From assembly GCF_900141805.1 (NCBI RefSeq), contig NZ_FQYN01000001.1:496001-560000 (forward strand): a stretch of DNA of 64,000 bases, written 5' to 3'. Shown in pieces: positions 1,661 through 13,041 of the stretch (position 1 is its first letter; each line of letters begins with the position of its first letter). A program made the translations under genes and the position numbers. The notes below the pieces were generated by a model. The model was not told the origin of the DNA and ran no database searches. It worked only from the letters and a program-made list of their open reading frames with translations. Source of the DNA: Hymenobacter daecheongensis DSM 21074. Lineage in GTDB: Bacteria > Bacteroidota > Bacteroidia > Cytophagales > Hymenobacteraceae.

Positions 1661-2128
1661 TTACCGGGGGTCTTGCCAGACCAGCATTTCGGCGGTTCGT
1701 TTTTTGGTGAAGTCGGCGCAGTTGCCGTCGCCGCGGCCGGTGATGCCGCCGTCGGGGTGGCAAAGCACCTTGCCTTTGGCATCGTATACGGTGCTAAACT
1801 GGTCGCAGCAGGGTGCGGTTTCGAAGTACACCGCCTCGCCATTGTAGCGGTAGCGGTAGATGTGGATGGGCGGGTTCAGCTTGGGTTCGGCCAGGTGACT
1901 CTGAATACGGGCTTCCAGCCACCGGGGCCGGGCCGTGGTATCGAATGCGGCGGGGCGGTTGCGGGTCAGGTTGGTGGTGTTGGCGCTGGTGGGGTTGGGC
2001 GTATCGGGGCCGCTCACGCTGCCCGATACCGGCGCATCGGTGGGGGTAGTAACGGCCACGCCCCGCTGGCAGGCCCCGGTGAGAAGCAGTGCGGCAGAGC
2101 TAACGGCAAAAAACAGGGTCGGACGCAT
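1661..2128 (-). CDS. Small lipoprotein, DUF6970-like
   Basis: A 155-residue lipoprotein. The signal peptide MRPTLFFAVSSAALLLTGAC has a lipobox ending at Cys20, so the mature protein should be lipid-anchored. A Thr/Asn/Pro-rich linker is followed by a compact domain with PPIHIYRYRYNGEAVY, a Cys-Cys pair (APCCDQF), then VLCHPDGG and GDGNCADF. This four-cysteine pattern resembles, from memory, DUF6970; the function is unknown. ATGs lie at 2132-2134 and 2126-2128; I chose the second for the best signal peptide. The upstream side is a word-array inverted repeat. Confidence 0.75.
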   Translation of the reverse strand: MRPTLFFAVSSAALLLTGACQRGVAVTTPTDAPVSGSVSGPDTPNPTSANTTNLTRNRPAAFDTTARPRWLEARIQSHLAEPKLNPPIHIYRYRYNGEAVYFETAPCCDQFSTVYDAKGKVLCHPDGGITGRGDGNCADFTKKRTAEMLVWQDPR

Positions 2129-2133
2129 GGGCA

Positions 2134-2296
2134 TCAATGAGCAATGAACGATGAGGAATGAGCAGTTGGCTGATCAGGAAACGACCGTACTTGCTTACGC
2201 CGGCCTGACCCAATTGTTCCTGCCGGCCCTTACCTGCTCCTTTCATATTCCTTGCTCATTCTTCCTTGCTGATTGGTCATTGCTCCTTGATCATTG
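2134..2296. repeat. Word-array inverted repeat, 7-nt word AATGAGC
   Basis: The left arm reads ATGAGCA, ATGAACG, ATGAGGA, ATGAGCAG. The right arm, read from the other side, is a longer run of the same kind (AATGATC, AAGGAGC, AATGACC, AATCAGC, AAGGAAG, AATGAGC, AAGGAAT). The period is 7. Read inward, each arm is dense in TGA. The dgkA stop codon is one of these TGA triplets. Confidence 0.75.
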
Positions 2297-9223: not shown

Positions 9224-9254
9224 CTTGTTATCAGCCAATCCTTTTTCACCTTTG
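9224..9254 (+). promoter_or_regulatory. Possible promoter of the aromatic amino acid operon
   Basis: CTTG at 9224-9227, a 19-base spacer, then CACCTTTG at 9247-9254, one mismatch from TAnnTTTG. Transcription would start about 30 bases before the first leader peptide. Confidence 0.35.
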
Positions 9255-9290: not shown

Positions 9291-9350
9291 ATGCGTACCG
9301 GCTTGGCTCAGTATTATTTCAACTACTACTTTTTCTACGCCACCGCGTAG
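9291..9350 (+). CDS. Leader peptide 1, Tyr/Phe-rich
   Basis: A 19-codon frame encodes MRTGLAQYYFNYYFFYATA. Five Tyr and three Phe codons lie within nine residues (8-16). It sits 340 bases before the aminotransferase-tyrA-DAHP synthase operon and directly before alternative hairpins and a terminator. This is the layout of a classical ribosome-stalling attenuator: shortage of charged tRNA-Tyr or tRNA-Phe would stall the ribosome at the YYFNYYFFY run. The last codons overlap the first stem. Confidence 0.85.
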   Translation: MRTGLAQYYFNYYFFYATA

Positions 9351-9424
9351 AAACGAGGCCGTATGTGGTAGCATCCCCAGCATACTTCAAAAGAGCCTCT
9401 CGCATCCCGGGAGGCTCTTTTTTT
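9332..9424 (+). promoter_or_regulatory. Attenuator 1: pause hairpin, antiterminator and terminator
   Basis: Segment 1 (9332-9340, TTTCTACGC) pairs with segment 2 (9345-9353, GCGTAGAAA), a 9-bp stem over the end of leader 1. Segment 2 continues as GAGGC (9355-9359) and GTATG (9361-9365), which can pair with CATAC (9381-9385) and GCCTC (9395-9399) as an antiterminator. The same GCCTC forms the left arm of the terminator at 9389-9424. A ribosome stalled on the Tyr/Phe codons would cover segment 1 and favour antitermination. The pairings were found by eye; no energies were calculated. Confidence 0.8.
9389..9424 (+). terminator. Attenuator 1 terminator
   Basis: The 11-bp stem AAAAGAGCCTC / GAGGCTCTTTT with an 11-base loop is followed by a run of T. 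Confidence 0.85.
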
Positions 9425-9445
9425 GGTTTTAACTCCCACGTTCCC

Positions 9446-9523
9446 ATGTTCCATCAGCACCGCGCTTATTACGGGTATTGCTCCTGCTACCGCAAGCAGC
9501 GGCTGCCCTATTGCTGTATCTGA
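9446..9523 (+). CDS. Leader peptide 2, Tyr-rich with Cys
   Basis: A 25-codon frame begins MFHQHRAYYGYCSCY and ends PYCCI. It has five Tyr codons (positions 8, 9, 11, 15, 22), one Phe and four Cys codons. It starts 20 bases after the T run of terminator 1 and is followed by a second antiterminator/terminator pair, so it appears to be a second leader peptide in series. The Tyr density suggests tyrosine sensing; whether Cys matters is unknown. Confidence 0.75.
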   Translation: MFHQHRAYYGYCSCYRKQRLPYCCI

Positions 9524-9583
9524 GCGTTTCAGAACCACTTTTCAGCAAAAGACCAGGGCCCCGCACACCGGAGGCCCTTTTTT
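9505..9583 (+). promoter_or_regulatory. Attenuator 2: antiterminator and terminator
   Basis: GCCCT (9505-9509) and TTGCTG (9511-9516), inside the end of leader 2, can pair with AGGGC (9555-9559) and CAGCAA (9543-9548). A small inner hairpin TCTGA-GCGTT-TCAGA lies between. The competing form is the terminator at 9555-9583, which uses the same AGGGC. A further stem, CTGCT (9484-9488) with AGCAG (9495-9499), may act as a pause hairpin. Found by eye, not folded. Confidence 0.7.
9555..9583 (+). terminator. Attenuator 2 terminator
   Basis: AGGGCC plus CCG pairs with CGG plus GGCCCT, with one bulged A, followed by TTTTTT. It lies 50 bases before the aminotransferase ATG. Confidence 0.8.
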
Positions 9584-9632: not shown

Positions 9633-10811
9633 ATGAATATCTCCGTAGCCAGCCGCCTGCAGCATACCAGCGAATACTACTTCTCCCAGAAGCTGCGCGA
9701 AATTGAAGCGCTGAACCAGACCGGGGCGCAAGTCATCAACCTCGGCATTGGCAGCCCGGATAGGCCGCCCCACCCCCGCGTGGTGGCGGCCCTGACCGAG
9801 GCCGCCCGCCAGCCACATACCCACGCCTACCAGAGCTACAAAGGCGCGCCGGCCCTGCGCCAGGCTATGGCGGCCTGGTACGGGCACCACTACGGCGTGG
9901 CGCTGGATGCCGACTCGGAAATTCTGCCTTTGCTGGGCTCCAAAGAAGGTATTATGCACCTGAGCATGACGTTTCTGGAGGCCGGCGACGAGGTGCTGAT
10001 TCCGAACCCCGGCTACCCGGCCTACCGCGCCGCCGCCCAGCTCAGCGGGGCCACGCCCGTCGAATACGACCTCACGGCCGCCGATAGCTGGCTGCCCGAC
10101 CTCGACGCGCTGGCCCGCCGCGACTTGCGCCGCGTGAAGCTGATGTGGGTGAACTACCCGCACATGCCCACCGGCACGCCCGCCGAGCCGGGGTTTTTCG
10201 CGCGGCTGGTGGCCTTCGCCACGGCCCACGATATTCTGCTGGTGCACGACAATCCGTACGGCTTCATCCTGAACAACGACCCGCCGCAAAGCCTGTTGGC
10301 GGTGCCGGGGGCGCGGGAAGTGGCGCTGGAGCTGAACTCGCTGAGCAAGTCGCACAACATGGCGGGCTGGCGCGTGGGCATGCTGGCCGGCCGCGCCGAC
10401 CTGTTGCAGCAGGTGCTGCGCTTCAAGAGCAACCTCGACTCAGGCATGTTTCTGCCGGTGCAGCTGGCGGCCGTGGCGGCCCTGGAGCTAGGTGAGGAGT
10501 GGTACGCCGAATTGAACGCCCACTACCGCGCCCGCCGGGAGCTGGTATTCGCGTTGCTCGATGCCATTGGCTGCCCCTACGCGCCAAACCAGGTGAGCCT
10601 GTTCGTGTGGGCCGCCATTCCGGCCGGCTACGCCGATGGCTACGCGCTGAGCGACCGGCTGCTGCACGCGGCCCGCGTGTTCATCACGCCCGGCGGCATC
10701 TTCGGTTCCAATGGCAACGGCTTCATCCGCGTGAGTCTGTGCCAGCCAACGCAAGTGCTGCAAGAGGCGCTGGCCCGGATTACGAATGCCCGCCTGAACG
10801 AAGCCAACTGA
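9633..10811 (+). CDS. Class I/II PLP-dependent aminotransferase, probably aromatic
   Basis: A 392-residue fold-type I aminotransferase. The catalytic lysine lies in NSLSKSHNMAGWRVG near residue 240; NPGYPAY (residues about 125-131), NYPHMPTG and HDNPYGF also mark the PLP site. As the first gene before tyrA and DAHP synthase/chorismate mutase it most likely transaminates phenylpyruvate and hydroxyphenylpyruvate. By sequence alone an aspartate or LL-diaminopimelate-type role cannot be excluded. The frame is open 70 codons upstream through terminator 2; ATG at 9633-9635 (MNISVASRL) is the sensible start. Expression should depend on the two upstream attenuators. Confidence 0.88.
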   Translation: MNISVASRLQHTSEYYFSQKLREIEALNQTGAQVINLGIGSPDRPPHPRVVAALTEAARQPHTHAYQSYKGAPALRQAMAAWYGHHYGVALDADSEILPLLGSKEGIMHLSMTFLEAGDEVLIPNPGYPAYRAAAQLSGATPVEYDLTAADSWLPDLDALARRDLRRVKLMWVNYPHMPTGTPAEPGFFARLVAFATAHDILLVHDNPYGFILNNDPPQSLLAVPGAREVALELNSLSKSHNMAGWRVGMLAGRADLLQQVLRFKSNLDSGMFLPVQLAAVAALELGEEWYAELNAHYRARRELVFALLDAIGCPYAPNQVSLFVWAAIPAGYADGYALSDRLLHAARVFITPGGIFGSNGNGFIRVSLCQPTQVLQEALARITNARLNEAN

Positions 10812-10882: not shown

Positions 10883-11725
10883 ATGATTGTCACTATAATT
10901 GGCCTGGGCCTGATCGGCGGCTCCCTCGCCATCAGCCTCAAAGAAAAAGGCCTCGTCACCCACCGCATCGGCGTCGATCTGAGCCCCGAGAACTGCCGGA
11001 AAGCCCTGGCACTGGGCTTCATCGACGAAATAAGCCCCGACCTGGCCGCCGCCGTGCAACGCGCCGATCTGGTGGTGGTGGCCGTGCCGATGGATGCCAT
11101 GCTCACGGTGCTGCCCCAGGTGCTGGATGCCGTGGAAAACCAGGTGGTTATCGATGTAGGCTCCACTAAATCGATGCTGCTGGCGGCCGTGGCCGGGCAC
11201 CTGCGGCGGGGCCGGTTTGTGGCCGTGCACCCCATGGCGGGCACCGAATACTCGGGGCCGGAGGCGGCCGTAGCGGGCCTGTTCGAGGATAAAACGCTGG
11301 TAATCTGCGATGCCGACCAGAGCGACGCGGATGCGGTGGCGCAGGTCAAGCAGCTTTTCACGCAGCTGGCTATGCGCATTGAATACCTCGATGCCGCGGC
11401 CCACGATCTGCACACGGCCTACGTGTCGCACATCTCGCACATCACTTCCTTTGCCCTGGCCCTCACGGTGTTGGAGAAAGAAAAAGAAGTGGACCAGATT
11501 TTCGCGCTGGCCAGCGGGGGCTTTGCCTCCACGGTGCGCCTGGCCAAAAGCTCGCCCGCCATGTGGGTGCCCATCTTCCGCCAAAACCGCGTGAACGTGC
11601 TTGATGTGCTCGATGAGCACATCAAGCAGCTGCAGCATTTGCGGCAATTGATTGACCATGAAGATTTTGCCGCGGTTTATCAGCAGATAGAGCAGGCGAA
11701 TCTGATTAAGAAGATTTTGAAGTAA
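10883..11725 (+). CDS. tyrA: Prephenate dehydrogenase
   Basis: A 280-residue enzyme for NAD(P)-dependent oxidative decarboxylation of prephenate to 4-hydroxyphenylpyruvate in tyrosine synthesis. The Rossmann motif GLGLIGGSLA is at residues 7-16. DVGSTKS near residue 95, HPMAGTEYSGP near residue 117 and SHISHITSFAL near residue 180 are family hallmarks. There is no ACT or chorismate mutase domain; the mutase is on the third gene. It lies 71 bases after the aminotransferase. ATG at 10883-10885. Confidence 0.95.
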   Translation: MIVTIIGLGLIGGSLAISLKEKGLVTHRIGVDLSPENCRKALALGFIDEISPDLAAAVQRADLVVVAVPMDAMLTVLPQVLDAVENQVVIDVGSTKSMLLAAVAGHLRRGRFVAVHPMAGTEYSGPEAAVAGLFEDKTLVICDADQSDADAVAQVKQLFTQLAMRIEYLDAAAHDLHTAYVSHISHITSFALALTVLEKEKEVDQIFALASGGFASTVRLAKSSPAMWVPIFRQNRVNVLDVLDEHIKQLQHLRQLIDHEDFAAVYQQIEQANLIKKILK

Positions 11726-11970: not shown

Positions 11971-13041
11971 ATGCAATCCGCTCTTTTCAACCGCCAGCCC
12001 GACGACAAACCTTACCTGATTGCCGGGCCGTGCTCGGCCGAAACCGAGGAGCAGGTGCTCGATACCTGCCAGCGCTTGGCCGCCACTGGCAAAGTGCAGG
12101 CCCTGCGCGCGGGCATCTGGAAACCCCGCACCAAGCCCGGCGGCTTCGAGGGCGTGGGCACCAAGGGCCTGCCGTGGCTCAAGAAAGCCAGCGAGCTGAC
12201 CGGCCTGCCCATTGCCGTGGAAGTGGCCACCGCCAAGCACGTGGAGGACTGTCTGGCCTTCGGCGTCGATATTTTGTGGGTGGGCGCGCGCACTACCGGG
12301 AACCCGTTTTCGGTGCAGGAAATTGCCAACGTGCTGCGCGGCGTGCAGGTGCCGGTGTTGGTCAAAAATCCCATTCACCCGGAGCTGGAGCTGTGGACGG
12401 GGGCCGTGGAGCGCCTGCAAAAGGCCGGGCTGGCGCAGGTCGGGCTCATTCACCGCGGCTTCAGCAGCTACGGCAACACCGATTTCCGCAACGCGCCGAT
12501 GTGGCATCTGCCCATCGAAATGAAGCGCCGCCACCCCGAAATGCCGCTGCTCTGCGACCCCAGCCACATCTGCGGCCGCCGCGATACGCTGTTCGGGGTG
12601 GCCCAGCAGGCGCTCAATTTGGGCTTCGAGGGCAACATGATTGAAAGCCACCAGAACCCCGACGCGGCCTGGAGCGACGCCAAGCAGCAGATAACGCCTG
12701 AGGTGCTCCGCGACCTGATCGAAGCGCTGGTGTGGCGGCACGAAACCACCGACCAGCGCGAGTTTCTCACGGCCCTGGCCGGCCTGCGCGAGCAGATCAA
12801 TCAGATTGATGCCGAAATCATTCAGCTGCTGGGCCGCCGCATGGGCGTGGCCGAGAAGATTGGGGAATACAAAAAGGAAAACGACATCACCATTCTGCAG
12901 ACCAGCCGCTGGAACGAGGTGCTGGAGCGTGCCCAGCGCCAGGGCTCGGCCGTGGGCCTCACGCCCGGGTTTGTGGAGCAATACCTGGCGGCGGTGCATC
13001 TGGAGTCGATTAACCGGCAGAATGGGGTGATGGAGCGGTAA
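11971..13041 (+). CDS. Bifunctional DAHP synthase / chorismate mutase
   Basis: A 356-residue fusion. Residues about 15-260 form a type I-beta (KDO8P synthase-like) DAHP synthase: LIAGPCSAET, AGIWKPRTKPGGFEGVG, VKNPIHPELELW, HRGFSSYGN and LLCDPSHICGRRD. Residues about 270-350 form an AroQ chorismate mutase (LREQINQIDAEIIQLLGRRM and on through ITILQTSRW). It condenses PEP and erythrose-4-phosphate and also converts chorismate to prephenate, so it feeds tyrA directly. Third gene of the operon. The longer frame upstream is repeat sequence; ATG at 11971-11973. Confidence 0.95.
   Translation: MQSALFNRQPDDKPYLIAGPCSAETEEQVLDTCQRLAATGKVQALRAGIWKPRTKPGGFEGVGTKGLPWLKKASELTGLPIAVEVATAKHVEDCLAFGVDILWVGARTTGNPFSVQEIANVLRGVQVPVLVKNPIHPELELWTGAVERLQKAGLAQVGLIHRGFSSYGNTDFRNAPMWHLPIEMKRRHPEMPLLCDPSHICGRRDTLFGVAQQALNLGFEGNMIESHQNPDAAWSDAKQQITPEVLRDLIEALVWRHETTDQREFLTALAGLREQINQIDAEIIQLLGRRMGVAEKIGEYKKENDITILQTSRWNEVLERAQRQGSAVGLTPGFVEQYLAAVHLESINRQNGVMER

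Follow-up and report, generated by a model that had tools for sequence, protein, structure and literature searches.

Putative tandem leader-peptide attenuators with Tyr/Phe codons precede an aromatic amino acid operon in Hymenobacter

The trp, his, pheA and pheST operons of enteric bacteria are controlled by ribosome-mediated transcription attenuation, and most descriptions of leader-peptide attenuation concern one switch. Tandem attenuators are known from the Salmonella mgtCBR operon, in which the signals are ATP and proline, the two effects are additive and the genes serve virulence and Mg2+ transport; its authors contrast these attenuators with intrinsic terminators, raise Rho and term the tandem attenuators a singular example (Lee and Groisman, 2012; PMC3641672). 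Within Bacteroidota, a study of Flavobacterium psychrophilum reports a structured 5′ element upstream of pheA, without an Rfam hit, in this species and other Flavobacteriaceae, and suggests leader-peptide attenuation upstream of amino acid operons (PMC9723704). The Bacteroid-trp RNA motif is a cis-regulatory RNA candidate in Bacteroidetes (Weinberg, 2010; PMC2864571). Our literature search, with most subscription journals outside its reach, turned up no account of serial amino acid leader attenuators in this phylum and, beyond the Flavobacterium study, none of attenuation by Tyr/Phe leaders. The mechanism itself is textbook.

The window analyzed here is a 64,000-nt stretch of Hymenobacter daecheongensis DSM 21074 (contig NZ_FQYN01000001.1, positions 496,001 to 560,000). 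It contains an aromatic amino acid operon preceded by two short leader ORFs with codons for the end products, each followed by an intrinsic terminator ahead of the structural genes and provided with an antiterminator that competes with it (Table 1). The two units, here called gates 1 and 2, very probably act in series on a single transcript, each as a ribosome-mediated transcription attenuator. At gate 1, GAGGC pairs with GCCTC and GTATG with CATAC; at gate 2, GCCCT pairs with AGGGC and TTGCTG with CAGCAA. Both the folds and the cross-genome complementarity indicate that the antiterminator and the terminator are mutually exclusive. A preliminary description had placed here a 19-codon leader with a YYFNYYFFY run and a 9-bp pause stem at its end, a contest between antiterminator and terminator for GCCTC, and a 25-codon second leader with its own terminator and competing antiterminator; all of these elements are found where it put them. 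Its assignment of the aminotransferase, tyrA and DAHP synthase/chorismate mutase genes agrees with the Pfam domains. A simple terminator scan detects terminator 1 and misses terminator 2.

Table 1. Features of the leader region and operon of H. daecheongensis DSM 21074 (window coordinates).
Feature	Position	Strand	Details
Promoter-like site, Bacteroidota type	9225..9254	+	TTG 9225-9227, 19-nt spacer, CACCTTTG 9247-9254; consensus match only
Leader peptide 1, MRTGLAQYYFNYYFFYATA	9291..9350	+	19 codons, YYFNYYFFY run; orthologs in genus and sister genus have a Tyr/Phe run in the same place
Pause-type hairpin spanning the leader 1 end and stop codon	9332..9353	+	core CTACGC CACC GCGTAG 9335-9350
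Gate 1 antiterminator 5′ arm, directly 3′ of the stop codon	9355..9365	+	GAGGC 9355-9359, GTATG 9361-9365
Gate 1 antiterminator 3′ arm	9381..9399	+	CATAC 9381-9385; GCCTC 9395-9399, common to the terminator
Gate 1 intrinsic terminator	9389..9424	+	14-bp stem 9389-9421, T run 9418-9424
Leader peptide 2, MFHQHRAYYGYCSCYRKQRLPYCCI	9446..9523	+	25 codons; orthologs mostly Phe- and Tyr-rich
Gate 2 antiterminator 5′ arm, within the final leader 2 codons	9505..9516	+	GCCCT 9505-9509, TTGCTG 9511-9516
Gate 2 antiterminator 3′ arm	9543..9559	+	CAGCAA 9543-9548; AGGGC 9555-9559, common to the terminator
Gate 2 intrinsic terminator	9555..9583	+	stem 9555-9578, T run 9578-9583
Aminotransferase class I/II, first structural gene	9633..10811	+	Pfam PF00155, E 2.7e-60
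tyrA, prephenate dehydrogenase	10883..11725	+	PF02153, PF20463
DAHP synthase fused to chorismate mutase	11971..13041	+	PF00793, PF01817

As in the enteric attenuators, the leader ORFs carry codons for the product amino acids, an antiterminator competes with an intrinsic terminator, and gate 1 has a candidate pause hairpin. In contrast to them, Hymenobacter has two complete units in series, mixes Tyr and Phe codons, uses two arm placements and belongs to another phylum. The likeness to mgtCBR lies in two leader ORFs on one leader RNA (in Hymenobacter, a probable single transcript), each with its own attenuator; unlike mgtCBR, Hymenobacter has an intrinsic terminator at the end of both gates and, in most species, codons for one and the same pair of amino acids in both. 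The Flavobacterium psychrophilum element, as far as the available text goes, shares the phylum and the target gene pheA, while the tandem layout, codon content and mechanism given here for Hymenobacter are absent from that text (PMC9723704). Bacteroid-trp is by name a trp motif (PMC2864571), and Rfam does not match our region to it. The Rfam search of the region returned sub-threshold matches only and no match to the T-box model; Thr_leader (RF00506) was rejected at 27.7 bits against a cut-off of 55.

To describe the distribution of the tandem arrangement, we used 120 genomes of the genus, of which 111 have the aminotransferase ortholog and 95 have a leader region that was read. Leaders were sought 5′ of pheA where pheA separates them from the aminotransferase gene, as it does in most relatives. 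Two Tyr/Phe-rich leaders in series occur in 74 of the 95 genomes (73 by an automatic rule and G037 by eye) and one leader occurs in 20; in the remaining genome, G321, the second leader has no nearby stop codon. The pair is also present in all five genomes of g103, a genus of the same family that we call the sister genus for short (one of the five, L257, is recorded as Hymenobacter jeollabukensis), and in six genomes of g101, another genus of the family, which form what we label a Pontibacter-like subclade; the other g101 members are single. Outside the family, it is found in 11/11 analyzed Chitinophaga, in two Saprospiraceae/Saprospirales MAGs and in a further genome of the class, L034. Elsewhere in Bacteroidia, a lone Tyr/Phe leader and its terminator are common, as a rule 5′ of pheA, and two Hymenobacter subclades have a single gate. 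The fixed score cut-offs for terminators undercount short or bulged stems, and a single-gate label for several Chitinophaga and Hymenobacter loci was dropped after their sequences were read by eye. The aminotransferase tree, which does not include the Pontibacter-like subclade, holds four changes between tandem and single, counted without direction. The comparison of genomes indicates that the tandem pair is ancient.

The two gates are built differently. The antiterminator 5′ arm of gate 1 lies 3′ of the stop codon in 69/69 genomes of Hymenobacter and g103, 6/6 of g101 and 11/11 of Chitinophaga, and the arm of gate 2 lies in the last leader codons in 72/73, 6/6 and 11/11, respectively. The order of the gates is constant across these three groups. 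Because the two architectures differ, the pair is not a recent duplication of one unit. Single gates mostly have the gate 2 architecture. The L034 and Saprospiraceae pairs deviate from the rule of arm placement and may have an independent origin. One single-gate Hymenobacter subclade (G008, G030, G323, G324, G326 and G330; e.g. L014) has a leader, MLQPTARFFFSYYFYYLPGSRAAVL, that apparently skips the usual stop codon, continues across what was once the antiterminator arm and ends at a TAG further 3′, and its competing arm sits in the leader end.

These single-gate lineages bear on the question of whether both gates work. If only one gate worked per species, the second would be a relic or a backup and the serial layout would have no regulatory meaning; the two Hymenobacter subclades that manage with one gate, the stop codon lost from leader 2 of G321 and the single gate of most other Bacteroidia fit such a reading. 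Nevertheless, Tyr/Phe codons, arm complementarity and terminators are kept at both gates across most of the genus, and the order of two distinct architectures is kept in three groups, which makes a relic gate improbable, although it is the strongest of the competitors to double attenuation.

The amino acids that the leaders read are best seen against the history of pheA. This gene lies directly 5′ of the aminotransferase gene in most relatives and is missing from the operon of H. daecheongensis. No protein of this genome, which is 100% complete, matches PF00800 (prephenate dehydratase, pheA); the domain is found in 106/120 genomes of the genus, and the search recovered all 14 controls. pheA is also missing in G037, G048 and G319, and G004 has a fragment of it. 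Nine other genomes of the genus have neither pheA nor the aminotransferase ortholog. With tyrA kept, H. daecheongensis is predicted to be a Phe auxotroph or to have a non-homologous route to Phe.

In 75 pheA-bearing genomes of the genus and sister genus, leader 1 has a median of 4 Phe and 4 Tyr codons and leader 2 a median of 5 Phe and 4 Tyr codons. The preliminary description had read gate 1 as Tyr/Phe and gate 2 as mainly Tyr; as a general design, this reading does not stand, as both leaders are mixed in these genomes. The run of leader 2 is AYYGYCSCY in H. daecheongensis compared with FFYYGFTYRFY in its nearest relative, G017, so that the Phe codons of the run are gone; three Phe codons are kept in leader 1. 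The Tyr bias of gate 2 in this species is a derived state of a genome without pheA. Likewise, leader 1 of G048 and G319 contains no Phe, and G037 has lost most Phe codons of leader 2. More distantly, Arcicella, Pseudarcicella, Flectobacillus and related MAGs have operons without pheA and mostly Tyr-only leaders (YYYYYGQ); the four such genomes tested carry pheA elsewhere, and no Tyr/Phe leader was seen 5′ of the relocated gene in these four. In six loci of Arcicella, Flectobacillus and relatives (L239, L242, L245, L248, L259 and L262), the Tyr-only leaders are single and the antiterminator arm follows the stop codon. Leaders of L037 and L039, from another family, lean towards Tyr, and pheA was not found anywhere in these two genomes.

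Overall, F/(F+Y) has a median of 0 (range 0 to 0.40, n=13) for leaders of operons without pheA and 0.56 (n=202) for leaders of operons with pheA (Mann-Whitney p 1.5e-9, on rows that are not independent and include four pheA-less lineages). An independent-pairs phylogenetic test of pheA against Phe codons yields three pairs, which are unanimous in most pairings (p 0.25), and is underpowered because there are only four pheA-less lineages. That Phe codons have been lost in the absence of pheA is an indirect hint that termination may respond to the charging of the cognate tRNAs. The link between the two losses amounts to a natural experiment on the signals that the leaders sense.

The two attenuators of mgtCBR respond to different signals. 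In the pheA-bearing relatives, both leaders carry Tyr and Phe codons, which suggests that the two gates read the same signals. One gate could instead report Tyr/Phe charging and the other general translation, another amino acid such as Cys or a bound factor. The differing architectures, the four Cys codons in gate 2 of H. daecheongensis, the CC that is common near the end of gate 2 leaders and the precedent of the Salmonella mgtCBR leader (PMC3641672) point in that direction. However, both runs are about equally dense in Tyr/Phe in the pheA-bearing relatives. A ribosome stalled on the CC codons near the leader end would mask the antiterminator arm, since these codons are in the arm or 3′ of it, and codon choice there is bound by RNA pairing. 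Separate signals are a marginally poorer explanation than a relic gate, and we regard them as unlikely.

Serial control presupposes one transcript. The Bacteroidota promoter consensus is TTTG-N19-TAnnTTTG. In a scan with this consensus, 50 of 85 tandem genomes have a site scoring at least 8 ahead of leader 1, compared with 6% of shuffles, and 0/85 have one between the gates. A single transcript through both gates, from a promoter upstream of leader 1, is thus likely. Were leader 2 on a separate transcript with its own promoter, the gates would act in parallel rather than in series. The scan is blind to promoters unlike the consensus and would miss such a promoter, but the contrast of 0/85 with 50/85 and the conserved stop-to-stop distance of the two leaders (150–185 nt) make this arrangement very unlikely. 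A relic gate, a different signal and a second promoter are each less likely than double attenuation.

Conservation of the RNA pairing is apparent at both gates. When the antiterminator arm of each genome is paired with its own terminator arm, the summed complementarity is reached by 0/5000 permutations at either gate, in a test that is alignment-free and does not fully remove shared ancestry. The mean pairing energy is -12.6 kcal/mol with the own terminator and -9.7 kcal/mol with clearly different terminators at gate 1, and -17.9 and -16.2 kcal/mol, respectively, at gate 2. The alignment-free test was used because register shifts between clades defeat RNAalifold and column counts. For the same reason, RNAalifold on gate 2 recovers the terminator and not the antiterminator, and antiterminator 1 is weaker by alignment columns, where pairing is 69.7% compared with 35–48% in slid versions and the covariation score is reached by 21/500 shuffles. 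The gate 1 terminator and the stop-codon hairpin together contain 20 cells with two-sided compensatory changes, compared with 3.8 in shuffles (0/500 as high). Six pairs of this hairpin are present in 70/80 genomes and in 0.6% of background windows. The innermost position of the hairpin is occupied by C-G, G-C, A-U or U-A, with a peptide end that shifts among ATA, GKP, EQS and VTT. Since the pairs are kept while the end of the leader 1 peptide varies, selection acts on the RNA rather than on the peptide. The hairpin is of the pause type and may synchronize the ribosome and RNA polymerase; no pause hairpin was established at gate 2. Conserved Tyr/Phe codons and covarying stems in orthologous leaders, which the preliminary description had set as a check on its two ribosome-stalling gates in series, are both present.

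The folds of the H. daecheongensis RNA are consistent with a switch. Leaders with their terminators fold more stably than shuffled sequences (z -4.3 and -2.2), and the antiterminator stretches folded alone show no significant excess over shuffles (z -1.25 and -1.12), so that support for the antiterminators comes from the comparison of genomes. Taken singly, short ORFs and hairpins are frequent, and the antiterminator folds are not significant alone, but the conservation and compensatory change over many genomes refute a chance origin of the ORFs and of the terminator-like hairpins in an intergenic region rich in GC.

In snapshot folds with the ribosome placed on the Tyr/Phe run, the antiterminator (core) is the minimum-energy fold up to the terminator 5′ arm (-14.6 and -17.9 kcal/mol); when the ribosome sits on the stop codon instead, the antiterminator is lost and the terminator forms. 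Counted from the first nucleotide of the final Tyr/Phe codon, the antiterminator arm starts at a median of 15 nt at gate 1 (82 genomes) and 13 nt at gate 2 (83 genomes). A distance of 13–15 nt is just past the leading edge of a stalled ribosome. With a leading edge of 12 nt assumed, the arm is free on stalling and covered at the stop codon, both in these 82–83 genomes and in the snapshot folds. At equilibrium, the terminator is more stable than the antiterminator at each gate, and the switch must therefore be under kinetic control, which is the norm for switches of this kind. Two gate 2 codons 3′ of the Tyr/Phe run (window 9491–9499, CGCAAGCAG) are strongly conserved among leader 2 orthologs, mostly Lys-Lys and usually AAGAAG; RNA pairing, spacing or slow translation are candidate reasons.

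Double attenuation would operate as follows. At each gate, a ribosome would translate the short leader and, when charged tRNA-Tyr (or tRNA-Phe where its codons exist) is scarce, stall on the Tyr/Phe run with its leading edge stopping shortly before the antiterminator 5′ arm. This arm would then be free to form the antiterminator with the emerging terminator 5′ arm, and RNA polymerase would continue. A ribosome that reaches the stop codon would mask the arm, and the terminator would form and end the transcript near 9424 or 9583. The operon would be transcribed only when both gates are passed, so the output would approximate the product of the two read-through probabilities, which would make shut-off tight and the starvation response steeper. 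Both amino acids would be sensed by each gate in pheA-bearing relatives. In H. daecheongensis, where pheA is lost and the gate 2 run has no Phe codon, the series should open on Tyr shortage and no longer on Phe shortage alone.

With serial gates, a change of codons in a single gate would be enough to retarget the whole operon. This raises the tentative idea, which we hold to be somewhat doubtful, that stacking is an evolvable design: a gate with a post-stop arm is placed before the widespread gate with a leader-end arm, an order shared by three groups; multiplication of the two gates yields a steep response to two amino acids; and recoding of one gate retargets the operon, as the genomes without pheA appear to have done (gate 2 in H. 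daecheongensis, gate 1 in G048 and G319). The value of serial gates in tightness, steepness and ease of retargeting is testable, since the genus is culturable and has close relatives with single and double gates. The conserved pair, with intrinsic terminators at both gates, would give many Bacteroidota a regulatory mechanism for aromatic amino acid synthesis, for which none is apparently described in the literature searched.

The aminotransferase of Hymenobacter is 66–69% identical to that of Chitinophaga, and its pheA is 35–47% identical to that of family-mates outside g103; because of these values, the operon and its tandem leader may have moved horizontally. Elsewhere in the H. daecheongensis genome, a His-rich leader ORF (HHHVHGHH) lies 5′ of hisG (L276, about 1028–1147), with no clear T run seen 3′ of it at this locus. 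The trp operon carries one leader, MTFQNLQQAWWWPLRNSGRESLCVR (L275, about 2122–2199, minus strand), which contains WWW codons and is accompanied by a terminator.
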